In this document: positions 1,854-36,362 of the stretch, one piece after another
Numbering within the stretch: position 1 is the stretch's first letter
How the letters are laid out: each line of letters opens with the position of its first letter
From: Clarkia xantiana subsp. parviflora
Taxonomy: Eukaryota > Streptophyta > Magnoliopsida > Myrtales > Onagraceae
Reading direction: 5' to 3'
NCBI GenBank assembly: GCA_036873135.1
Contig: JAPTYO010000007.1
Span: 60,808,383 to 60,872,382 of the forward strand
Length of the DNA: 64,000 nucleotides
Translations under genes and position numbers: made by a program
Notes under the pieces: model-generated
The model's database searches: none
The model's input: only the letters and a program-made list of their open reading frames with translations
What the model was told of the DNA's origin: nothing

Positions 1854-4674
1854 TTCACGGAGGACTTGCTGCAATAGGAGATACTACGGCAGTTCGGGAG
1901 GTCTATGCTTCTCGGATTCCCATTGCTGTGGTGCTGGGCAAGAGGGCCCGAAATTGGACTCCGAAAGAAGAAATGGTGATTCCCTTCTCAGCGGAGGACC
2001 TGATAGGTGTGGAGACCCCGCACAATGATGCCTTGGTCGTGACCCTGAACGTGGATGGGTACGAGATGAAGCGGATCCTAATCGACGGAGGGAGCTCCTC
2101 CGATATTCTGTTCATGGACGCACTACAAGCCATGGGGAAAACTAAAAATGACTTGAAGCCTGCGGACTTCCCGATGGTCGGATTTCTGGCTCTACCTCTT
2201 ACCCGGTCGGGGTGATTACCTTACCGGTCGAGTTCGGGAGTGGTTGGAAGTCGGAGAAGAGGAACGTAGAGTTCGTGGTGGTCGAGTCTGCGGGGACCTA
2301 CAATGCCATTATCGGGAGGACTACCATCAACCCGCTGGGGTCAATTGCCTCAACTGTCCATCAGAAGCTGAAGTTCCCGACTGACCACAGAATCGGGGAG
2401 GTCCAGGGCGATCAGATAGCTTCCAGGAGGTTCTATGTCAATGCCACCCGGAGGAGAAATCGGGAGGCTATGACTGTATTCCAGACTGACGCTGATCCTC
2501 GAGAGGAGTTCGGGCGTCCCGCCCCAATGGAAGATTTGAAGGAGGTCGAGATTGATGGACCTCAGAGGAAGGTGAAAATCGGGTACGCTCTGACTGAGGA
2601 GACGGCCCGAGAATTGATTGGTCTGTTGAAGGAGTTCAAGGAGCTGTTCGCCTGGTCCCCGAGTGACATGCCAGGAATCAGCCCCGATGTGATTACTCAT
2701 GAGCTGAAGATTGATCCCGCGATCAAGCCGATTACACAGAGAAGGCGCCCGATGGGTGCCGACAAGAAGATTGCGATCCAGCAAGAGGTGGGCAGGTTGC
2801 TCGATGCTGGATTCATTAAGGAGCTCCGATTCCAGACCTGGGTCGCCAAGCCAGTCCTGGTGAAGAAGAGCAATGGCAAATGACAGATGTGCGTTGACTT
2901 TCGCGACCTGAACAAGGCATTCCCGAAGGATTGCTATCCGCTCCCGAGGATCGACCAGCTGGTGGATGCCACATCGGGACATGAGCTGTTGAGCTTTATG
3001 GATGCTTACTCTGGCTACAATCAGATCAAGATGTCTAAGGAGGATGCCCCCTATACCGCCTTCTATGCTGATAGTGACATCTATCATTATGATGTTATGC
3101 CATTTGGACTGATCAATGCAGGTGCAACTTACCAGAGGATGGTGAACAAGCTCTTCGGGGACATGCTGGGAAAAACAATTGAGGCCTATGTGGACGACAT
3201 GCTGGTGAAGTCCCGACAGGCCGAGGATCATGTTCACAACTTGGCCATAGCATTCGAGCGGATGAGGCTCCATCAAGTTCGCTTGAACCCTACCAAGTGT
3301 GCCTTCGGAGTGCACTCAGGGAAGTTCCTGGGCTTTATGGTGAGCCAGAGGGGAATCGAAGTCAACCCTGAGAAGCTGAACGCGATCGAAGAGATGAAGT
3401 CCCCGATTAACCATCGGGAGGTGCAGGTGCTGAACGGCCGACTGGCCGCGATGAATCGCTTCCTGTCCAAGGCAAGCGACCGATCCATGCGTTCTTTGAA
3501 GTATTGAGGGCCAACAAGAAGTTTGAATGGACTGCCAAGTGTGAAGAGGCGTTCCAGGCACTCAAGCAGCACCTTCGCACCCTCCCGCCATTGGCGAAGC
3601 CCATCCCAAGCGAGCCACTCTATCTGTATTTGGCTGTTTCTGAATTTGCTGTTAGCTCTGACTTAGTGAAAGTTGTAGAGGGTAACCAAGCCCCCGTCTA
3701 TTATGTAAGCAAGGCATTCGCCAAATCTGAAAGGAATTATCCCGCCGTTGAGAAGTATCTCTATGCGTTGATTGTTACTGCTCGGAAGCTAAAGCCTTAC
3801 TTCCACGCGCATGAGATTACGGTTTTGACGAATTAGCCCTTGAAACATTTTTTGAACTGACCTGATGAGTCGGGGAGATTGGTGAAATTGGCAGTCGAGC
3901 TTAGTGAGTTCCACATTCACTTTGCTCCGAGAATGGCTATTAAGGGCCAGGCGTTGGCGGATTTCATAGCAGAGTCTACAGCCCCCGATCTAGAAGAAGC
4001 AGGCCCTGTAGAGGGGGCAACCACGGAGGTCCCGATAACAGAGCAGTCAGAACAGCCCGACGCCGAAAATACTTGGGAGATGTACACCGATGGCTCCTCA
4101 AATTCAGAAGGATCGGGAGCAGGTTTCGTACTGATACCACCAGACGGAGGCGAGCCCCTCCGATATGCCTTGGCCTTGACATTTAGGGCCACCAACAATG
4201 AAGCTGAATATGAGGCTCTCATAACTGGCCTCAAGATTTCTAATTGCTAAAGGAACGGGAGTTGGTCACTTAAAGGTGAAGTGTGATGCTAGCCTGATTG
4301 TGAACCAAGTCCAGGGGCGATACGAAGCAAAGAGCCCGATGATGAAAAAATACCTTCAGGAGGTTCAAACCCTGAAGGAGAGTTTCAAGAGCTTCGCTAT
4401 TGAAGCGATCCCGAGGGAGGATAATGTGGAAGCAGATGCCTTGAGCATGTTCGCCTTGGGGGCACCCCTCGATGAAAGTCGGAAAGTGCATTTCTTGGAG
4501 AAAGTGATCCTGTCAACCACCGATCAGTTGGAGGTTTGTGCCATTGAGATCGGGTCGGAGGAGCCCACTTGGATGACCCCGATAGCCGCGTATCTGACTA
4601 CGGGGGGCCGGGGACAGTCCCCGATGATGAAGTGGCAGCTGGCAAAATACGCCGAATCGCGCCCAATTACGTGA
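1850..4674 (+). pseudogene. pol: Element A protease, reverse transcriptase and RNase H region, multiply broken
   Basis: The protease motif LIDGGSSSDILF lies near 2080-2115, with DGG at the active site as in D. A frameshift near 2190 and a TGA at 2881-2883, where D has Trp, precede the RT. The RT piece 2887-3507 retains FMDAYSGYNQIKM and YVDDMLVKS. A frameshift near 3490, a TAG at 3834-3836 (D has Gln) and a TGA shortly after (D has Arg) break the gypsy RNase H. A second RNase H begins WEMYTDGSSNSEGSG near 4073 and contains ATNNEAEYEALITGL. It is broken by a frameshift near 4245, with another near 4605. The number and spread of lesions rule out function. Confidence 0.9.
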
Positions 4675-5810
4675 TGGTGGACAATCAGCTGTACAAAAAG
4701 GGATATTTAACTCCTTATCTGAAATGCGTGGCTGAGCCTGACACAGGTCGGATCCATAGAGAAGTGCATGAAGGATATTTGGATTGTCATGAAGGAGCCC
4801 GATCCATCGTGAGGAAAGTGCTGAACCTGGGCTATTACTGGCCCTCGATGAACAAGGAGGCAACGATGCTAGTCCGATCATGTGACGCCTGCCAGAAGTA
4901 CGCCCCGAATATCGTGGCCCCAGCTGCCGATCTGACGTCCATCAAGAGTGCTTGGCCCTTCGCGCAGTGTGGAATTGACCTGGTGGGACCCCTCCCAGTT
5001 GCAAAAGGTCAGTGTCGATATTTAGTCGTGGCTATTGATTATTTTTCAAAATGGATAGAAGCCAAGGCATTGGCCAAGACAACGGGGAACCATATCCTCA
5101 AATTCCTCCAGACCCATATCATATCCAGATACGGGATCCCCAAGGTGGTGATCAGCGATAACGGCCCCCCGTTTAATGGGGCCCAGTGGAAGGAGTACTT
5201 GGAGGAACTGAAAATTGAGAATCGGACAGCTTCCGTCCGTCATGCTCAAACCAACGGACAGGTGGAATCAGCCAACAAGATCGTAATGGATGGCCTGAAG
5301 AAGAGGGTCCATGCTTTGAAGGGCAAATGGCTGGATGAGCTGGAAAATGTGCTTTGGGCTGTTAGAACAACGCCCAAACGATCAACTGGGGAGACTCCGT
5401 TTGGCCTTGTTTATGGCACAGAAGCAGTTGCTCCCGTCGAAATAGCTGTGGTATCCCATCGGACGAGGCATTATGAACCTCTATCGAATGATGAAATGAG
5501 GCGTCTGGACTTGGACTTGGTCGAAGAAAAGAGGCGGAGTGCCAAGGAGGCCCAGGCTCGGATGCGTTTGGCAACAGCCCGATATTATAATCGACGAGTC
5601 AAGTCTCGACAGTTCTTTGTCGGGGAACTGGTCTGGCGTCGGAACGAATTCACCCTTTTGGATCGGATCAACAAGATGTCACCAAAATGGGAAGGGCCTT
5701 ATAAGGTCGTGGGGATGCCAGCTCGGAATGCGTACAAGTTGGAAGACCTCGATGGAAATGTGTTGAAACATTCTTTTAGTGGCGAACACTTGAAGAAATG
5801 TCATGTTTGA
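4655..5810 (+). CDS. Element A integrase, the only intact pol domain of this copy
   Basis: An uninterrupted frame runs to the TGA at 5808-5810. In order it has an HHCC zinc finger (HEG, CHEG, later CDAC), then a DDE catalytic core: Asp in CGIDLVGPLP, Asp in ISDNGPPFNG and Glu in NGQVESANK. The C-terminal region ends HSFSGEHLKKCHV. Integrase inserts the retrotransposon cDNA into the host chromosome. In a live element it would be cut from the Gag-Pol polyprotein, and here no start codon of its own is expected. The visible open frame begins earlier (about 4569), but upstream of about 4605 it is out of register with D because of a frameshift. Confidence 0.85.
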
Positions 5811-5817
5811 TGTTAAT

Positions 5818-5998
5818 TCGCCTTCAGTGGTGAAAGTTATTTATTAAGTCGCCTTCAGTGGTGCAAGTTATTTATTAAGTCGCCTTCAGTGGTGCAAGTT
5901 ATTTATTAAGTCACCTTTAGTGGTGCAAGTTATTTATTAAGTCGCCTTCAGTGGTGCAAGTTGTTTATTAAGTCGCCTTCAGTGGTGCAAGTTTAGCC
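5818..5998 (+). repeat. Tandem array, 31-bp unit, after element A pol
   Basis: Six consecutive copies of a 31-bp unit with core CGCCTTCAGTGGTG start just after the pol stop codon. One unit reads CACCTTTAGTGGTG, keeping a short inverted pair (CACC with GGTG). Tat and Ogre elements are known for hypervariable tandem repeats between pol and the 3' LTR. Confidence 0.9.
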
Positions 5999-6054
5999 AT
6001 CAATGAATAAAGAGGTTGCTTCCGACAAGTCCATTCTAAGACTTATTATTCTAA

Positions 6055-6378
6055 GTATGCTTAAATCGCCTTAAGTGCTGTAGCTAAATTGCCTTAAGTG
6101 GCATGTTTCCGCCTTAAGTGGCATGATTAAATCGCCTTAAGTGGCGTGGTTCCGCATTAAGGGGCACGATTAAATCACCTTAAGTGGTGTGGATAAGTTG
6201 CCTTAAGGGGCACGAGTAAATCGCCTTAAGTGGTGTGGAAAAGTTGCCTTAAGGGGCACGATTAAATCGCCTTAAGTGGCATGATTAAATCGCCTTAAGT
6301 GACGCGTCGAAATTACTCTTAAGTGACATGATCGAATTGCCTTAAGTGGCGTAGTTAATTCACCTTAAGTGGTGCAGT
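6055..6378 (+). repeat. Tandem array, about 23-bp unit, element A 3' region
   Basis: About thirteen degenerate copies of a 23-24-bp unit with core CGCCTTAAGTGGCG. Units vary but often keep inverted ends: TGCC with GGCA, CGCC with GGCG, CACC with GGTG. The core is nearly that of the 31-bp array immediately upstream and of the array in D at 55229-55531. Confidence 0.9.
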
Positions 6379-7349
6379 GATGATCGGGACCAAAAGAGAT
6401 TGATATTATAAAGATCTGGGAGGTTCGCGACAAAGAAGGAAATTACAAGGATTCGAAAAATAAAGCAATCAAGCTTGATCCTTGGCAGCGTCGAGGGTAG
6501 CAGGATCCACGAGGTCTGTGGTAGAAGGCTCCGTGGTCGGGGGACCGGACTCTGGAAGATTGGCCGCGGGAGGATCGGACTCGGGGAAGTCAGCCGGTGA
6601 AGGGTTGATCATCGGGGGCTCAGTTGTCGGGAGTTCTGCACTTGGAAGTTCCACCGTGCCTTTAGCACCCGCAGCCCCCTCGGGAGTGTTGGCCCCGTCA
6701 CTCTCCTCAGAAAGGTTTAAGTACCTCTCCGCGAAGGAGGCGAGGGTCTAAGACTTGGTGAAATCGATGGCACCACCATACTCCAGATGGAGCTCTTCAA
6801 CAGCATTAAGCAGGGTGGTCTCCACCACCGCTGTACAGAACTTTACCGCGTCCAGTTGGAAAGCCTCGGAGCCCCGATAATCTTCCCGTCCCTTGGCCTC
6901 AGCCTCGGCCAGCTTGGTGGGGAACTCAGCAAGTTCTCGCTCCATCTGCTGGGACTGGTTGGAGAGAAGGGCCTTCTCAGCCTCCAGCCCCGCCTTGGAA
7001 TTCTCGAGGGCCTTCTTCTCGGCTTCCAGCCCCGCCTTGGCATCCTCGAGGGCCTTCTTCTCAAAGACATGCCTGTCCCGATCCTCCACGCGCCCCCGCT
7101 GCTCCTCACTGAGCCTTTGGCGCTCCTGCTTGAGCAGCCTCTCAAAATCGTGGACCTGCCTCAAGAGGTCCCGAGTCTTCTGGTTAAGAAGGGCTGCTCC
7201 TTAACCAACTTCCCCTTTGACGACTCGGAGGCAGCCAGATCCTCCTCGAGCTTAGCCAAGACCTCGGGGGACGCCTTGGCTCGCTCCTCCTTCAGGGCCT
7301 CCTCCAAGGCCAGGATATACCCGAAGCAGCGGTGCTGGTCCGCCATTTC

Positions 7350-7836: not shown

Positions 7837-7841
7837 GAGAC
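7837..7841. repeat. Left target site duplication of the chimeric element
   Basis: GAGAC here is repeated at 10952-10956. Removing the insert and one copy restores the antisense exon 3 reading frame, so this is the genuine insertion boundary. Confidence 0.9.
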
Positions 7842-8118
7842 TGTTACGTGAATGGAGATGAGAATGAAGGGTAGAAGATGAGAATATGAGGGAAGGTTAG
7901 AAGAAGACAGAAGAGATAGTGAGAAACAGATAGAATTTGGCAAATTGTACTATATTCCTCTCCATCATTGTCTCAGTACATATATTGCCGTAATACATAA
8001 AATACTAATTATTCATCAATAGACCATTATACTCTAGCTAATTACTTATTTAGTCCCTCTAATTCTTTATTCATCATAAAAGTCCCCCAGCTACTAGATA
8101 ATAGGATGATACGTAACA
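7842..8118 (-). repeat. 3' LTR of the chimeric element (Reina-like)
   Basis: 277 bp bounded by TGTTACGT and ACGTAACA, an 8-bp terminal inverted pair. On the - strand it is preceded by a purine tract at 8119-8133. No partner copy exists at the other end of the insertion. Confidence 0.85.
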
Positions 8119-8133
8119 TACCCCACCCCTAAG
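8119..8133 (-). promoter_or_regulatory. Polypurine tract of the Reina-like half
   Basis: On the - strand the sequence AGGGGTGGGG lies directly against the LTR start. This is the usual primer site for plus-strand DNA synthesis. Confidence 0.75.
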
Positions 8134-8147
8134 AACAATCCTTGTCC

Positions 8148-10436
8148 TCAAGGATCGATAGAAGGAAAAGCAGACTTGAGGAAGGACCAATCATCCCAAG
8201 TTGCATCATCCGTTCCCAAGTTAGTCCATTGCACCAACACTTGTCGAATCTCGTTTCCTTTTCTGAAAATCACACGCTCCCCTAGCAAGGCCGCTGGAAG
8301 GGTAATGAATTCTCCATGGCTATTTGTTGTTGGAAGGTCCGTAACGGTAGTCACTCGACGTCCAACCGTCTTCTTCAACAATGAAACTTGGAACACCGGG
8401 TTAATGGAAGATGAGGAAGGTAGGTCTAACTTGTAAGCGACTTCACTGATATGAGCAACAACTTTAAAAGGGCCGTAGTAACGGGCCGATAACTTCAAGT
8501 TCTTACGCAGAGCTAACGACGATTGACGATATGGCTGCAATTTCACGTAAACCAAATCTCCCACCACGAAAGACCGTTCAGACCGTTTCTTGTCGGCTAA
8601 TCCCTTCATACGACTTTGCGCTTCTTGGAGATTCGACATGAGAAGACGAGTAATAGTCTTGCGATCTTGCACCACCTCATTCACTTTGTCCACGGTAGAG
8701 GCCTCAACAATGTCCCAAGAGGTAGTTGGTGGAGTATACCCATAGAGTGCCTCGAAGGGACTCATCTTTGTCGCTGAATGGTAATTGGTATTGTACCAAA
8801 GTTCAGCTAGGGGAATCCATTTTGCCCAGCGTCGAGGGTATTGGCCAGTCATACAACGCAAGTACGTCTCGAGGCATTGATTCACTCGCTCGGTCTGTCC
8901 GTCCGTTTGTGGATGATATGCGGAGCTCAATCGTAACTGCACCCCCAACAACTTGAAGAGCTCTTGCCAAAACAAACTTGTGAATATCTTATCCCTATCA
9001 AAGACAATGCTTTGGGGTATACCATGAAGTTTAACAACACTATCCAAAAACATTTGTGCCACTACCGAAGCCGTGAAAGGGTGAGAAAGTGGAACAAAGT
9101 GGGCATACTTGGTGAATCTGTCCACAACCACCAAAATAGAGTTCTTGCCTAAGGATGTTGGCAGGATTTCAATAAAATCCATCGTTACGTGTTGCCAAGC
9201 TTGTTCCGGAACGGAAAGAGGTGCAAGTAGTCCCGGGTTCGCCACATGTTCAACCTTATAGCGTTGGCAAGTGTCACACGAACGAACCCATTCTTGTATA
9301 TCTGATTTCATGTTCTTCCAATAGAAATGCCTTTTGATCCTTTGATATGTTACTGTCACCCCCGAATGACCCCCTTCAGCGGAGCCATGTAACGAGGATA
9401 AAATAGTAGTCCGCATCTCTGCGCCCGACCCAACGAAAACCTTATTTTTGTAACGAATGACTCCATTCACATAAGACCAAGGCGAGACTAATGATCCTGA
9501 ATTCTCCTTTAATGTGGCTATCAAGGCAGCAGCTTCAGAATCTCCCTCATAGCTACGTTGAACATCTTGTAACCACAATGGGGAAACCACGGAGATAGCG
9601 AAACTGGATGCGGGTATTCGCGAGAGCGCATCTGCAGCAATATTCTCTCGTCCTTTCCTATAACAAATAGTATAATCAAGTCCCAACAACTTACTGAGGC
9701 CTTTCTTTTGTATGGAAGTGGTGATTTTTTGATCCAGCAAAAATTTGAGACTTTCATGATCTGTTTGGATGGTGAAGGGAGTTCCAAGGAAGTAGTGTCT
9801 CCATTTAGTGACTGCCATTAGTATAGCTAGATATTCCTTCTCGTATATAGAGAGATCCGCATTCCTTCCATTTAGTGCCTTACTGAAGAAGGCGATAGGA
9901 CGACCTCGCTGAGATAAGACCGCCCCCACTCCATTCGTACAAGCATCTGTCTCCAATGTGAATGAATGAGAGAAGTCGGGTATCACTAGGACTGGAGCTT
10001 CCGCTAGAGACTGTTTAAGAGTGGAGAATGCTCGTGTAGCTTCAATACCCCAAGACCAACCATCCTTTTTTAGTAGCTCTGTGAGTGGTTTGCTAATAGC
10101 TCCAAAATGACGAACAAATTTTCGATAATAGCCCGCCAAACCTAAAAATCCACGCAGCTCCTTAACGCTCTTTGGAGTTGGCCATTCAACTATTGCCCGG
10201 ACCGTGTCGGGGTCCGTTCTAAGACCATCCGCGGTGATAATATGCCCGAGATACTCAATGCTTTCTCTCCCAAAGGAACATTTAGAACGTTTAGCAAATA
10301 AATTTTGTTCTCGGAGAATTGCAAGGACTTCATAAAGGTGTCGACGATGCAGCTCCAATGATCGACTGTAGATGAGAATATCGTCGAAGAAAACGAGGAA
10401 AAACTTGCGTAACAATCTTTCAAAGACAGTATTCAT
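8148..10436 (-). CDS. pol: Chromovirus pol, C-terminal two thirds: partial RT, RNase H, integrase, chromodomain
   Basis: An uninterrupted 762-residue frame. It begins within RT: upstream codons read FHFEFRVIPFGLTNAPATF and the frame stays open into the TRIM LTR. RT catalytic residues are FFDD at about residues 16-19, where YVDD or FVDD is usual. RNase H follows (ETDACTNGVGAVL), then an integrase zinc finger (GGHSG, CDTCQ) and a DDE core (VTMDFIEILP, FDRDKIF, TDGQTERVNQ). The C-terminus has a chromodomain-like segment (VLVQWTNLGTDDATWDDW) that in this clade directs integration to particular chromatin. Gag, protease and the RT fingers are absent, so it cannot be autonomous. The lack of stops over 2.3 kb suggests a fairly recent insertion. 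Confidence 0.88.
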   Translation of the reverse strand: MNTVFERLLRKFFLVFFDDILIYSRSLELHRRHLYEVLAILREQNLFAKRSKCSFGRESIEYLGHIITADGLRTDPDTVRAIVEWPTPKSVKELRGFLGLAGYYRKFVRHFGAISKPLTELLKKDGWSWGIEATRAFSTLKQSLAEAPVLVIPDFSHSFTLETDACTNGVGAVLSQRGRPIAFFSKALNGRNADLSIYEKEYLAILMAVTKWRHYFLGTPFTIQTDHESLKFLLDQKITTSIQKKGLSKLLGLDYTICYRKGRENIAADALSRIPASSFAISVVSPLWLQDVQRSYEGDSEAAALIATLKENSGSLVSPWSYVNGVIRYKNKVFVGSGAEMRTTILSSLHGSAEGGHSGVTVTYQRIKRHFYWKNMKSDIQEWVRSCDTCQRYKVEHVANPGLLAPLSVPEQAWQHVTMDFIEILPTSLGKNSILVVVDRFTKYAHFVPLSHPFTASVVAQMFLDSVVKLHGIPQSIVFDRDKIFTSLFWQELFKLLGVQLRLSSAYHPQTDGQTERVNQCLETYLRCMTGQYPRRWAKWIPLAELWYNTNYHSATKMSPFEALYGYTPPTTSWDIVEASTVDKVNEVVQDRKTITRLLMSNLQEAQSRMKGLADKKRSERSFVVGDLVYVKLQPYRQSSLALRKNLKLSARYYGPFKVVAHISEVAYKLDLPSSSSINPVFQVSLLKKTVGRRVTTVTDLPTTNSHGEFITLPAALLGERVIFRKGNEIRQVLVQWTNLGTDDATWDDWSFLKSAFPSIDP

Positions 10437-10494
10437 GAGAGCTTGGAAGGTGGCGGGTGCATTCGTAAGGCCAAAAGGTATAACACGAAACTCA

Positions 10495-10606
10495 AAATGG
10501 AAGAGCCCAACCCAATAAACTAGTCTATTAGGTGGGAGGACCCATTTGGCTTATATACACCACATATGTTGGTTGCCCAACCGATGAGGTATATTAAACC
10601 ATGACA
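10495..10606 (-). repeat. Second TRIM-like LTR copy, truncated at the fusion
   Basis: Matches 10840-10951 with a few substitutions. On the - strand it starts TGTCATGGTTTAATAT at 10606 but lacks the terminal TTTGTAACA. At that point the sequence passes into RT codons. Confidence 0.85.
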
Positions 10607-10828
10607 ATCGTTCCTCCTTAAGGAGACCGACGTCCTCGTTGGTCACGGTCACGTTGGTCACGGCTGGCTTCCTCCAGGCCACCACTCCGTGAGCCACCAC
10701 TACGATCCCTTGTTGGTCACGGCCACGTCGGTCACGGTCACGTTGGTCACGGCTGGCTTCTCCAGGCCACCACTCCGTGAGCCACCGCTCCGTGGGCCAC
10801 CACTCCAAGGTCTGGCTCTGATACCAAT
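10607..10828 (-). repeat. TRIM-like internal region with direct duplication
   Basis: About 220 bp between the two short LTRs. A roughly 90-100-bp segment rich in GGTCACGTTGGTCACGG and CCACCACTCCGTGAG occurs twice. No ORF is evident, as expected for TRIM elements. Confidence 0.7.
10813..10826 (-). promoter_or_regulatory. Primer binding site of the TRIM-like half
   Basis: On the - strand TGGTATCAGAGCCA starts two bases after the LTR end. It fits the standard site complementary to initiator Met tRNA. Confidence 0.85.
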
Positions 10829-10951
10829 TGTTACAAACCAAATGGAGGAGCCCAACCCAATAAACTAGTCTATTAGGTGGAAGGACCCATTTGGCTTATA
10901 TACACCACATATGTTGGTTGCCCAACCGATGTGGGATATTAAACCATGACA
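10829..10951 (-). repeat. 5' LTR of the chimeric element (TRIM-like, 123 bp)
   Basis: On the - strand it starts TGTCATGG and ends TTTGTAACA, with a TATATAAG box and the ATATCCCACATCGG block often seen in short plant LTRs. It abuts the GAGAC target duplication at 10952. Confidence 0.85.
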
Positions 10952-10956
10952 GAGAC
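10952..10956. repeat. Right target site duplication of the chimeric element
   Basis: GAGAC, identical to 7837-7841. Confidence 0.9.
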
Positions 10957-14272: not shown

Positions 14273-15769
14273 TAGCAGTTCAAAACCCATGCTTGACTCT
14301 TTTTAAGTTAAGATATTCGTCCAATTTAGGTTCGATACTGACATCAGGGGTGGCTTGTTTGTCAATTCGATTGTAGGGTTCATAAATTGGACCAACTTTA
14401 ATTTTACGCCGTATGTACGTAATCTGTTTACAAGGTTAGCGTGGCGGACAATATGCATATAACAACATGCAATTAACGATATAGTCGCAATATCGTAATG
14501 AGTAAAATACTTGTAATTATAAAGAATTATACAACGTGATAATATCATGGTACATGACGTAAGCATATAACACGTTGTCAACATGCAGATGACGATATAG
14601 CAAATGGATGACGTAATCATGCAATAAGCAAAACACTTAGAACAATATAAAATTGGAGAGCATGTACGTAATCATGAAGCATGGTGTAAATGTGAGACAT
14701 GATGTAAACATGAAATTCATACTTAGATTATAAAAATAATCATGTAACGATCATAAATAAGAATCGTGCATAATAAATTCTATGTACGTAATATGTAATA
14801 ATAATTACGTGTAGTATGTCATGAAGCATTGTGTAGTATGTATGCAATATGAACATAGGAGAGATGCAAAGATGCTTGTAAAGGTTGCTAAGGACTTATA
14901 TGAAAATACATGAAAGTTTAGTCCTTAGCACATGTTGTAAGCACTATTAGTGAAAATTAGGAGAGAGAATACTCATTATCTTACATCCTTCATAGATAAA
15001 TCTCCAAGAAGCTCTCCACTCTTGATGAAGATTAAGCTTTTGAGATCATAAATTTAGAGAAGACACACAATAGTTGATATCAATTGGATTCCGGCCAAGG
15101 GAGGGAACAAGGTCGACGGCGCGTGGAAGAGGGATTGGCGGCGCGTGACTGGAACCACGGCGGCGCGTCATCTCGGCGGTGGCAGCGCGTGATTTTTCTG
15201 GTGTGGCACGTGTTAATTCGGACTCGCTTCGTGTTGGTGAGTTCAATTCCGTACATGGCTGGACATTTTGTGACTTCGTTTGGACTTAATTTTATCTTGA
15301 AATCATCATGTGTGTAGTCACCTTAACACTCACATAAGGTGTTTGATAAAATGCATTAGAGTAATTAGCTTTCCAAATCGGCCAAAATTTTTCTTAGTGC
15401 TGGAAATTTTTAGAAAAGTATAAATCGATTGTTATACTTCCCTTGTGCATAGTATTCATTGCCGTCATGTTGTTCCATGCTTTAGTCATCGTTTTTGCAT
15501 GCTTGATGTTGATGATGGATAGTTGTTCGGACATGATCGTTGATTGTTGTACATGGGTAATGGTAAGCTAGACAATGTGCTTTGAGCGTCGTATGTTGAT
15601 CATAAGCCACTTTCTGCAAGCATGCTAAAACACTTAGAAAATATTTTAACAATATCTAATGCTTGTTACCATAGATGTCGTCGTATGAGCTTTGTCAATA
15701 AGCGTCGTAAAAATACTTAGGAGGTATTGTGTAGAAGTTGATAATAGCTACTTGATGCATGCAATCTAT
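14273..15769 (-). other. Element B non-coding 3' internal region
   Basis: AT-rich sequence with many dispersed variants of CATGATGTAAACATG and CATGCAATA, also found in B2 at 40700-41200. A GC-rich stretch lies at about 15090-15240. No gene is supported. Confidence 0.5.
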
Positions 15770-16727
15770 CCTTGTCGACATGTATGTATGTAATGGAAAC
15801 ACTTAGAAAATATTCTTCCCTTGTCGACATGTATGTACGTACATGGAAATACTTAGAAAATATTCTTCTCTTGTCGACATCCATCCTTGTCGACATGTAT
15901 GTACGTACATGGAAACACTTAGAAAATATTAATCACTTGTCGACATCCATCCTTGTCGACATGTATGTACGTACATAGAAACACATAGGAAATATTTCTT
16001 GCTTGTCGACATCCATCCTTGTCGACATGTATGTACGTTCATGGAAACACTTAGAAAATATCTTTCACTTGTCGACATCCATCCTTGTCGACATGTATGT
16101 ATGTACATGGAAACACTTAGAAAATATCTTTCACTTGTCGACATCCATCCTTGTCGACATGTATGTACGTACATGGAAACATTTAGGAAATATTCCTCAC
16201 TTGTCGACATCCATCATTGTTGACATGTATGTACGTACATGGAAACATTTAGGAAATATTCCTCACTTGTCGACATCCATCATTGTCGACATGTATGTAC
16301 GCACATGGAAACATTTAGGAAATATTCCTCGCTTGTCGACATCCATCCTTGTCGACATGTATGTACGTACGTGGAAACACTTAGAAAATATATTTCACTT
16401 GTCGACATCCATCCTTGTCGACATGTATGTACGTACATGGAAACACTTAGAAAATATCTTTCACTTGTCGACATCCATCATTGTCGACATGTATGTACGT
16501 ACATGGAAACATTTAGGAAATATTTCTCACTTGTCGACATCCATCCTTGTCGACATGTATGTACGTACATTGAAACATTAAGGAAATATTCCTCACTTGT
16601 CGACATCCATCCTTGTCGACATGTATGTACGCACATGGAAACATTTAGGAAATATTCCTCGCTTGTCTACATCCATCCTTGTCGACATGTAGGTACGTAC
16701 ATGGAAACCCTTAGGAAATATTTCGTC
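15770..16727 (-). repeat. Tandem array, 66-bp unit, in element B
   Basis: About fourteen units of 66 bp. Each carries two copies of the perfect 8-bp palindrome TGTCGACA and a near-palindrome CATGTATGTACGTACATG, then a spacer CTTAGAAAATATT. Since 66 is a multiple of three, several frames on both strands stay open and give artefactual repeat proteins. B2 has related but scattered units at 41500-42240. Confidence 0.92.
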
Positions 16728-17149
16728 CTTGTAATCATGTATGTTGCGAGTATGAGCTCCATGTCGTCATGGAAGTCGATGTGTTGAGAGGGTTGCCCCT
16801 CCTTGTATGATGGATGTTGCACGAAGATTATTAGGTCATTGCGTACATAGTTATCTCAGATGATGCGTGTTTCGCACTGATTGGATTGTTGGTTGCATTT
16901 TCCAGGATATCAGATCTTGATATCTTCTTGTCGGAATTAATCTTCCCACGGCTGTTATCATGAGTAAGTCTACTATTTCCATTCCGTGAGTAACTCTGTG
17001 TATGGATGTCGACATGGTTGAGCAGCTAAATAATACACCAAGTGTAGATGTTGATGTCCTTGCTTGATTAATTGATATCGGTACACATATACGTCCTTCT
17101 GAAGATTTGGTATGTTAATGATCTTTATGACTTGTATCATGTTGTAATG

Positions 17150-28375: not shown

Positions 28376-29829
28376 TGTCGGACCTAAAATCCGACCTAAG
28401 GCGAATTACGTTTTGAAAACGTTACAATTTTGAAAGAGTCGCCACTAGTTAATTATTAGGCTAACTAGAATCCTAAATTGCCTAGGAGAAATAATAATGA
28501 AAAAAAACGCCTAGGTTTAGAAATTGATCTACGATCAAAGAGATTCAGTTTCGGGGGTTCTATTACGGAAATAAAAGCATTTTAAAATCCGCCCTATCGG
28601 TACTCAATTCACCTAACTTGCCATATATTTATTTATTTTTCAGTTTCTTTATTTAAAAAAAACAATGATTCAGTTATATGTACATGTAAAAAAAAAAAAA
28701 ACAATATTGGTATACAAGGATTAAAGAAACAATAATTCAAAGTTCTACATAATTCAAAGTTCAATTATATTATGGTTTCTTTGCATATGCTACTTATTAC
28801 TTGGATAATTAATGGAAAAAAAATATATATATATAAAGCAGCTTTTGGTTACATCATAATCTAATAATTAACTAATAAAACATGAAGATGTAAATAATAA
28901 GAATAACAGATGCGAAACCAACTTAAACCAGCACAACAATCAACCAGTGGTAGTAATTAACAAATGCTTTCTAATTTATATAATTATCGGACTCAATCTC
29001 ATTCGCACAACCTTATCAATATTAGTTAAAATCAGAGACCAAGTCTAGCATTGAAAAAAAAATAAAAAATAAAAAATAAATCCAGCAACAGCAAGACAAA
29101 CCATCGTAGTAATATTTAGCACCTGTAACAACTGCCATCAAAATCACAGCCGTAGCAATTAAGGGACTACCTAGACGGAAAGTGAAGGTCACCGACCGGA
29201 GCAGCAGCGACCTGGGGTGGAGCAGCGGCAGCCTGGGCGGAGCAGCGGCGGTCGGATCGTGATGCAATAAAGGTCCAGGCGGCAGATGGAGCTCCGGGCG
29301 GGAGAGGACAGCGACGCTAGAGGTCCTGGTCTGGCTGGAACAGGCGATTCCGATAACGACTCTGACGATGGCGGGCCTCTAGCAGCAGCGACGTGTCCGG
29401 TACGATCTCCGGCAAGGCTGGAAGAACTGCAGAAGGTCACCGACGACAGCAACAAAAAAAAAAAAACCGGCAGCCCTTAGGGAGATAAATAATTTTTTGC
29501 ACGCAGAACGAGATCCCTTTATTTTATTGCTTTTCTGTTTTTTATTGTGTCCCCCTTTTACATATAAATTAGACCCATATATATAGTACTTAAACCTAGT
29601 CTAATTAAGCAGTAAATAATACTGATTTATTCTCCTAATATACTCTAAATATTCTAGATAATTAATACAAATATTCAGCAAATATACACTGCAATAAATA
29701 CAGATAACTATCCTAATATTGCTCTGAGCATCTTTGGAAGTTTCGCGACTAGCCAAATTTAGACATTTCCTCATTTAGGTGCGCCGCACGTCACGCGAGC
29801 CGAGCGTGGTCCAAAATTAAGTGTTTACA
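28376..29829 (-). repeat. 3' LTR of element E
   Basis: 1454 bp; on the - strand TGTAAACACTTAATTTTGG to TAGGTCCGACA. A TATATATATGG box lies at about 29575-29586, followed in element sense by a GC-rich island (29465-29165) and an AT-rich remainder. Open frames in the island are not credible genes. Confidence 0.95.
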
Positions 29830-34909: not shown

Positions 34910-36362
34910 TGTCGGACCTAAAATCCGACCTAAGGCGAATTACGTTTTGAAAACGTTACAATTTTGAAAGAGTCGCCACTAGTTAATTATTAGGCTAACT
35001 AGAATCCTAAATTGCCTAGGAGAAATAATAATGAAAAAAAACGCCTAGGTTTAGAAATTGATCTACGATCAAAGAGATTCAGTTTCGGGGGTTCTATTAC
35101 GGAAATAAAAGCATTTTAAAATCCGCCCTATCGGTACTCAATTCACCTAACTTGCCATATATTTATTTATTTTTCAGTTTCTTTATTTAAAAAAAACAAT
35201 GATTCAGTTATATGTACATGTAAAAAAAAAAAAAAAACAATATTGGTATACAAGGATTAAAGAAACAATAATTCAAAGTTCTACATAATTCAAAGTTCAA
35301 TTATATTATGGTTTCTTTGCATATGCTACTTATTACTTGGATAATTAATGGAAAAAATATATATATATAAAGCAGCTTTTGGTTACATCATAATCTAATA
35401 ATTAACTAATAAAACATGAAGATGTAAATAATAAGAATAACAGATGCGAAACCAACTTAAACCAGCACAACAATCAACCAGTGGTAGTAATTAACAAATG
35501 CTTTCTAATTTATATAATTATCGGACTCAATCTCATTCGCACAACCTTATCAATATTAGTTAAAATCAGAGACCAAGTCTAGCATTGAAAAAAAAAATAA
35601 AATAAAAAATAAATCCAGCAACAGCAAGACAAACCATCGTAGTAATATTTAGCACCTGTAACAACTGCCATCAAAATCACAGCCGTAGCAATTAAGGGAC
35701 TACCTAGACGGAAAGTGAAGGTCACCGACCGGAGCAGCAGCGACCTGGGGTGGAGCAGCGGCAGCCTGGGCGGAGCAGCGGCGGTCGGATCGTGATGCAA
35801 TAAAGGTCCAGGCGGCAGATGGAGCTCCGGGCGGGAGAGGACAGCGACGCTAGAGGTCCTGGTCTGGCTGGAACAGGCAATTCCGATAACGACTCTGACG
35901 ATGGCGGGCCTCTAGCAGCAGCGACGTGTCCGGTACGATCTCCGGCAAGGCTGGAAGAACTGCAGAAGGTCACCGACGACAGCAACAAAAAAAAAAAAAA
36001 CCGGCAGCCCTTAGGGAGATAAATAATTTTTTGCACGCAGAACGAGATCCCTTTATTTTATTGCTTTTCTGTTTTTTATTGTGCCCCCTTTTACATGTAA
36101 ATTAGACCCATATATATAGTACTTAAACCTAGTCTAATTAAGCAGTAAATAATACTGATTTATTCTCCTAATATACTCTAAATATTCTAGATAATTAATA
36201 CAAATATTCAGCAAATATACACTGCAATAAATACAGATAACTATCCTAATATTGCTCTGAGCATCTTTGGAAGTTTCGCGACTTGCCAAATTTAGACATT
36301 TCCTCATTTAGGTGCGCCGCACGTCACGCGAGCCGCGCGTGGTCCAAAATTAGGTGTTTACA
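34910..36362 (-). repeat. 5' LTR of element E
   Basis: 1453 bp, nearly identical to 28376-29829. The TATA box is at about 36109-36119 and the GC-rich island at about 35700-36005. Confidence 0.95.

Follow-up and report, generated by a model that had tools for sequence, protein, structure and literature searches.

In the genome of Clarkia xantiana subsp. parviflora, a single insertion joins two long terminal repeat (LTR) retroelements of different kinds: a terminal-repeat retrotransposon in miniature (TRIM) and the 3' part of a chromovirus. The insertion, a unit of 3110 bp on the minus strand, occupies positions 7842-10951 of a 64,000-nucleotide stretch of contig JAPTYO010000007.1 (C7:60808383-60872382), the whole of which is hereafter called the window. 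Its two outer LTRs are unrelated, since the TRIM LTR used as a query matches just two TRIM LTRs in the window and the chromovirus LTR matches itself alone, and GAGAC stands on each side of the unit. That the unit was inserted in one piece as a preformed hybrid is strongly supported by three observations: the target site duplication (TSD), the empty sites seen in 12 of 12 related copies of the host sequence, and a TRIM/chromovirus junction found only once in the genome.

Insertion into a host repeat

The sequence surrounding the unit is an open reading frame (ORF) on the strand opposite to the pol of a Ty3 repeat, for which 4019 first-look candidate copies were detected in the genome (695.6 Mb in 59 contigs were searched). 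Forty of these candidates were scored, giving 39 non-self copies that are 93-95% identical to a 604-bp flank query; 12 of these were examined across the insertion site. In all 12 the empty site was ungapped, with GAGAC in 11 copies and AAGAC in one, and the window flanks joined through a single GAGAC give an open frame. An earlier annotation made from the sequence alone (the first-pass annotation) had proposed that removal of the element restores the frame of a host exon; the open frame is borne out, whereas the term exon is not appropriate, as the frame runs antisense to pol in a repeat whose candidate copies number in the thousands, and is not a demonstrated gene.

Chance agreement of 5-mers was observed in 268 of 200000 random pairs in the window. 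From the TSD and the ungapped empty sites it follows that no host base was gained or lost, and that the outer ends of the chromovirus LTR and of the TRIM LTR bound one 5-bp duplication. Recombination of neighbouring elements at the DNA level predicts no flanking TSD, contrary to the perfect duplication and the 12 empty sites found here. An assembly error or a chance arrangement might be suspected within a host repeat with thousands of candidate copies, but it is scarcely credible given a perfect TSD at the exact LTR ends, an open joined frame, a junction without a second match in the genome, and the TSDs of independent analogues among the other chimeras described below.

Structure of the hybrid unit

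Read on the minus strand, the unit consists of LTR_T-int_T-LTR_T, the last lacking 11 bp, followed by the chromovirus from its reverse transcriptase (RT) to its 3' LTR (T denotes the TRIM and int an internal region; Table 1). The 123-bp 5' LTR followed by a Met-tRNA primer site, the 277-bp 3' LTR and the flanking GAGAC had all been described by the first-pass annotation and were found again; the primer-binding site is probably of the initiator Met tRNA type. On the other hand, that annotation recognized a TRIM 5' LTR joined to a chromovirus and missed the second TRIM LTR, a 112-nt repeat of the first with 96.4% identity, with which the whole TRIM is present. The first codons of the long open frame consist of TRIM LTR sequence.

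Table 1. Features of the hybrid unit (window positions)
Feature	Position	Strand	Basis
TSD GAGAC, low-coordinate copy	7837..7841	.	sequence; one GAGAC at 11 of the 12 empty sites and AAGAC at the other
Chromovirus 3' LTR, 277 bp, TG..CA	7842..8118	-	9-bp gap relative to the LTRs of L060 and L062
Chromovirus polypurine tract AGGGGTGGGGTA	8119..8131	-	read from sequence, comparison with L060
Open frame: RT end, RNase H, integrase, SH3-like and chromodomain-like parts	8148..10550	-	
TRIM/RT junction, 5-nt overlap CATTT	10495..10499	-	comparison with L060
TRIM 3' LTR, positions 1-112 of 123	10495..10606	-	
TRIM polypurine tract	10607..10619	-	alignment with L009, L010 and L016
TRIM internal region	10607..10828	-	
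Primer-binding site TGGTATCAGAGCC	10814..10826	-	
TRIM 5' LTR, 123 bp	10829..10951	-	
TSD GAGAC, high-coordinate copy	10952..10956	.	sequence

Two simple origins were rejected. Nesting of a TRIM within a chromovirus does not agree with the layout, as no chromovirus sequence lies beyond the TRIM and the last 11 bp of the TRIM are absent. In the retroviral replication scheme, ordinary copying of a single chimeric RNA yields identical outer LTRs; this origin is ruled out, the outer LTRs of the hybrid not being identical.

Junction, copy number and age

Compared with the full-length chromovirus copy L060, the TRIM and RT sequences overlap by 5 nt at the junction (CATTT, or AAATG on the other strand), and the probability of an overlap of at least 5 nt at a random junction is about 0.005. 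The junction had been placed earlier within a shared AAATGG; a shared stretch inside RT is indeed present, its length being 5 rather than 6 nt. Other insertions with the same junction had been suggested as a check of mobility, and a pattern of 34 nt allowing up to 3 mismatches matched once in 695.6 Mb, in the window only. As no second copy of the junction was found, the hybrid itself did not spread, and a mobile hybrid family is ruled out.

The two TRIM LTRs of the hybrid differ at four sites. At three of them the odd base of the hybrid occurs in 0 of 41 other aligned LTRs, while at the fourth the A of the 3' LTR occurs in 11 of the 41 and is absent from the closest subfamily. Since these differences look private, the two LTRs were probably identical at integration and diverged later. 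In the TRIM part, 6 of 457 positions carry private substitutions (counted by eye, with the fourth site among them), against 17 of 2635 positions in the chromovirus part. The rates do not differ significantly in a comparison of little power (Fisher p=0.14), which is compatible with one integration event and one age.

These data bear on the idea that a TRIM and a chromovirus were inserted separately, side by side and sharing GAGAC, and that a later deletion between two CATTT motifs removed the last 11 bp of the TRIM, one TSD and the chromovirus from its 5' LTR to RT. The exact sequence would result if the second element hit the same 5 bp beside the first, and a 2025 survey calls recombination that truncates plant elements common (PMC11899658). 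Because single-base adjacency is needed, the chance of which a rough calculation puts close to 6e-7 (about 4 chromovirus copies times 101 TRIM LTR matches, divided by 695.6 Mb), such a history is considered very unlikely; moreover, no host bases were lost in any of the 12 comparisons, and the private-substitution rates do not differ significantly.

The two parental families

The TRIM family has a unit of about 468 bp, with LTRs of 123 bp and an internal region of 222 bp. Genome-wide, 101 LTR matches were detected with up to 3 mismatches, and a reversed control pattern gave none. TSDs were assessed at 13 TRIM loci, of which 10 have perfect 5-bp duplications, one matches at 4/5 and two have none. 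The family shows the features that define TRIMs, namely a length below 1 kb, two LTRs, a primer-binding site, a polypurine tract and a 5-bp TSD. Tandem TRIM arrays occur at three loci (L010, L011 and L015), and adjacent TRIM units in opposite orientations were seen at two (L009 2318-3584 and L027 2225-2908).

Four copies of the chromovirus, all closely similar, are present in the genome: the window hybrid, L060, L061 and L062. They are 94-100% identical over the query, except that one has 97% over 2159 query bases; beyond these, the search listed the 5' LTRs belonging to two of the copies and short matches with 65-85% identity. L060 is full-length (5294 bp, LTRs of 286 bp at 97.6% identity, TSD CGATG), has a primer-binding site of the same type as that of the TRIM, and contains capsid/gag, protease, RT and a chromodomain (25.5 bits against a Pfam cut-off of 25.1). 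L061 is 5'-truncated against other sequence, and L062 (1481-4735, C26) carries a 2-kb internal deletion at a 9-nt overlap with its TSD, CGATA, intact. The window frame carries RT, RNase H and integrase, its chromodomain scoring below the cut-off (17.7 bits for the whole frame and 20.6 for the C-terminal piece). Chromoviruses (Ty3/gypsy) are defined by gag, protease and the order RT-RNase H-integrase with a C-terminal chromodomain; judged from these domains, the element belongs to them, with support from the L060 chromodomain just above the cut-off. It may be of the Reina type, which its 5.3-kb length and short LTRs would fit. When the RT/RNase H part served as a protein query, 7575 matches were obtained; among the 120 listed, identity is at most 67%, and most cover at most 94% of the query, with one at 98%.

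Both parents proposed in the first-pass annotation were thus located: the full-length chromovirus L060, and TRIM copies with LTRs 97-98% identical to those of the hybrid. As both produce 5-bp TSDs, the length of the duplication cannot separate copia from Ty3 machinery here.

Other chimeric insertions of the TRIM family

Further chimeras were sought in 42 loci (41 TRIM loci and the window), picked from the 101 LTR matches partly for close pairs, odd spacing or lone matches. Three of the 32 readable 5' ends of internal regions are not preceded by a TRIM LTR (L078, L080 and L081), a proportion that is not an unbiased rate because the loci were selected and not random. In three places (L009, L075 and L080), a TRIM LTR and primer-binding site are followed by sequence other than the TRIM interior.

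The closest analogue of the window hybrid, named Z (C3:23983531-23984182; L096 832-1001 and L081 11-492), has two unrelated LTRs within a perfect CAAAA/CAAAA duplication. It reads CAAAA, an unrelated LTR of 323 bp (TGTTATGG..GATCGTAACA), the primer-binding site and TRIM internal region, a TRIM LTR, and CAAAA. The left end of the unrelated LTR was located by looking for CAAAA and TGTTA, and CAAAATGTTA appeared in 15 of 2000 shuffles of the stretch searched for this end. A second chimera, Y (C2; L098, L080 and L099, about 27398269-27401528), is a three-LTR hetero-complex with perfect CAAAT duplications, in the order CAAAT, LTR_Y, TRIM internal region, TRIM LTR, primer-binding site, int_Y, LTR_Y, CAAAT; its ends are located independently of the duplication because the two outer LTR_Y copies repeat each other (93%). 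The reciprocal three-LTR complex, LTR_T-int_X-LTR_X-int_T-LTR_T, is found at L075 137-1920 (C14) between CTGCC and TTGCC (4/5). In Z, Y and L075 alike, the switch between families lies at the primer-binding site.

A different arrangement occurs in L012 (C4, reverse strand 2308-7055), a concatemer in which a TRIM LTR is joined to the start of LTR_W with just AT between, and a TRIM LTR to a TRIM LTR with T between. These LTR-to-LTR joins look like joins of unprocessed cDNA ends. At L078, where a TRIM internal region follows foreign sequence, no CTTCT-TG start was found within about 990 bp upstream.

With regard to the partners, a Pfam scan of four X and Y ORFs (two of the X ORFs from L075) gave no match, and for this reason X and Y look non-autonomous. 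The X interior is 69-71% identical to the W and Y interiors over about 300 bp, the Y interior up to 85-87% to that of W over a similar length, and a 50-bp stretch covering the W polypurine tract and LTR start is 80% like L060. These same-family chimeras, with partners of unproven lineage, lend further support to the view that the TRIM met other LTR elements before integration.

The three-LTR complexes also raise the possibility that a longer preformed heterodimer, comprising a complete TRIM and a complete chromovirus or a read-through transcript, was integrated and lost its middle later. Y and L075 show that three-LTR hetero-complexes exist, and in the same chromovirus family L062 has lost 2 kb of its interior at a 9-nt overlap. 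This history is highly improbable, since it demands an extra step and no trace of the chromovirus 5' half is present between the TRIM and RT at the window locus.

Origin of the hybrid

On balance, the probable account of the window insertion is that integration was preceded by the synthesis of a hybrid linear cDNA, likely in a virus-like particle containing both TRIM and chromovirus nucleic acid, and that this cDNA was inserted in one integrase event. The chromovirus would have been the first template of minus-strand synthesis, which would have run through its 3' LTR, integrase and RNase H. At CATTT in RT, where the overlap is directly visible, the nascent strand may have moved through the 5-nt match to TRIM RNA or TRIM plus-strand DNA, after which the whole TRIM would have been copied. 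Completion of the TRIM 5' LTR might then have come from plus-strand transfer at the primer-binding site common to both elements, the position at which the junctions of L075, Y and Z are found, or from a second TRIM template. The outcome of the last step, a TRIM U3 end and a chromovirus U5 end joined to host DNA with a 5-bp duplication, can be read at the locus.

The main competitor is end-joining before integration, in which a finished double-stranded TRIM cDNA, its U5 end trimmed by 11 bp, would be joined by microhomology to a 5'-truncated chromovirus cDNA and inserted in one integrase event. This would account for the presence of both TRIM LTRs, probably identical at integration, and explains more simply a junction near the TRIM outer end with U5 of the 3' LTR retained; the 5-nt overlap suits microhomology joining, and the LTR_T/LTR_W and LTR_T/LTR_T joins of L012, with AT or T between, offer an analogue. 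End-joining is nevertheless rather unlikely, as it requires a double-stranded truncated chromovirus cDNA, and the junctions of L075, Y and Z lie at the primer-binding site, a normal site of strand transfer, rather than at the outer ends of LTRs. Template switching between co-packaged RNAs, as suggested in the first-pass annotation, is plausible and is favoured over cDNA end-joining, a choice that sequence cannot decide; switching on the minus strand with plus-strand transfer explains the hybrid of the window and agrees with L075, Y and Z. The integration of a preformed hybrid, which that annotation also proposed, stands on the TSD, the 12 empty sites and the single junction, while the template switch itself is unproven. 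Under template switching and end-joining alike, TRIM and Ty3 nucleic acid were together before integration; a particle shared by a TRIM and a chromovirus, like the helper of the TRIM family, is an inference.

A broader proposal, to which slightly less than even credence is given, is that Ty3-type (chromovirus-like) machinery moves this TRIM family in a flowering plant. Elements combining the LTRs of two families would keep arising by heterologous strand transfer, mostly at the initiator-Met primer-binding site that the families share, and a single integrase complex would still insert them. Several observations weigh against template switching or against this proposal. The TRIM 3' LTR retains the first 112 of its 123 positions, and LTR-to-LTR joins like those of cDNA end-joining occur in the same genome (L012). 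There is one direct TRIM-chromovirus case, that of the window, the partners in the other chimeras being of unestablished lineage. Over the terminal 10 nt, the window chromovirus agrees with the TRIM at only 5-6/10, compared with 7-9/10 for LTR_X and LTR_Z and 6-7/10 for LTR_W (LTR_Y was offset by one base in this comparison).

Relation to known elements

Complexes with three LTRs and TSDs were described by Sabot and Schulman in 2007 and ascribed to abnormal strand transfer between co-packaged RNAs; across about 7 Mb from Triticeae they counted 2 template-switching complexes and 20 recombinant ones (PMC1950507). The window hybrid resembles them in having three LTRs and a flanking 5-bp TSD. However, in their four cases the outer LTRs are highly similar and the partners belong to one family, whereas the outer LTRs of the window hybrid and of Z are unrelated and one partner is a TRIM. 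Template-switching complexes are defined by a TSD and homologous outer LTRs around an internal LTR; the window unit has the TSD and the internal LTR and, with unrelated outer LTRs, falls outside this definition. Veju_L and BARE2, plant chimeric elements named in the same paper as products of template switching between different elements (PMC1950507), resemble the window hybrid by that second-hand description, not by sequence comparison.

Tandemly arrayed TRIMs with shared LTRs were reported by Gao et al. in 2016, and the arrays at L010, L011 and L015 are like those in the available part of that paper (PMC4717578). The arrays described there consist of TRIM units, whereas here a TRIM is joined to another LTR family. 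According to the same partial text, larger relatives were found for 11 of 289 TRIM subfamilies, those in flowering plants all being Ty1-copia (PMC4717578). For ONSEN, the accessible portion of Sanchez et al. 2017 (PMC5668417) ascribes in-family recombinants to two co-packaged transcripts before integration; those recombinants involve members of one family, whereas the sequences joined here share 5 nt (window) or about the length of the primer-binding site. In the excerpts available, Kojima (PMC10886601) indicates that TRIM counterparts may be Copia or Gypsy, with none indicated for Cassandra, a wheat study (PMC9744471) holds that TRIM helpers are hard to assign without experiments, and the 2025 survey of tandem LTR elements leaves their origin open (PMC11899658).

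Among the titles and abstract beginnings listed by searches of an open-access library, none described an insertion with unrelated LTRs in one target duplication, which is weak evidence of novelty because most subscription papers lie outside this scope. On this weak evidence, unrelated outer LTRs inside one target duplication may be new, their known relatives being template-switch complexes and tandem TRIMs.

The autonomous movers of TRIMs are largely unknown, and one TRIM end and one Ty3 end in a single insertion record a contact before integration. The insertion also suggests that integrase can use two different LTR ends together. If a Ty3-type helper indeed moves the TRIM, mixed-LTR insertions would document physically by which helper each non-autonomous element was carried. 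A scan of assembled genomes for unrelated LTR pairs in a shared target duplication is simple and could list helper-passenger pairs.

Other features of the window

Direct repeats of about 1457 bp with 99.1% identity lie at window positions 28376-29829 and 34910-36362 and are probably the LTRs of a young element. A tandem repeat array with self-matches every ~66 bp occupies positions 15764-16732.

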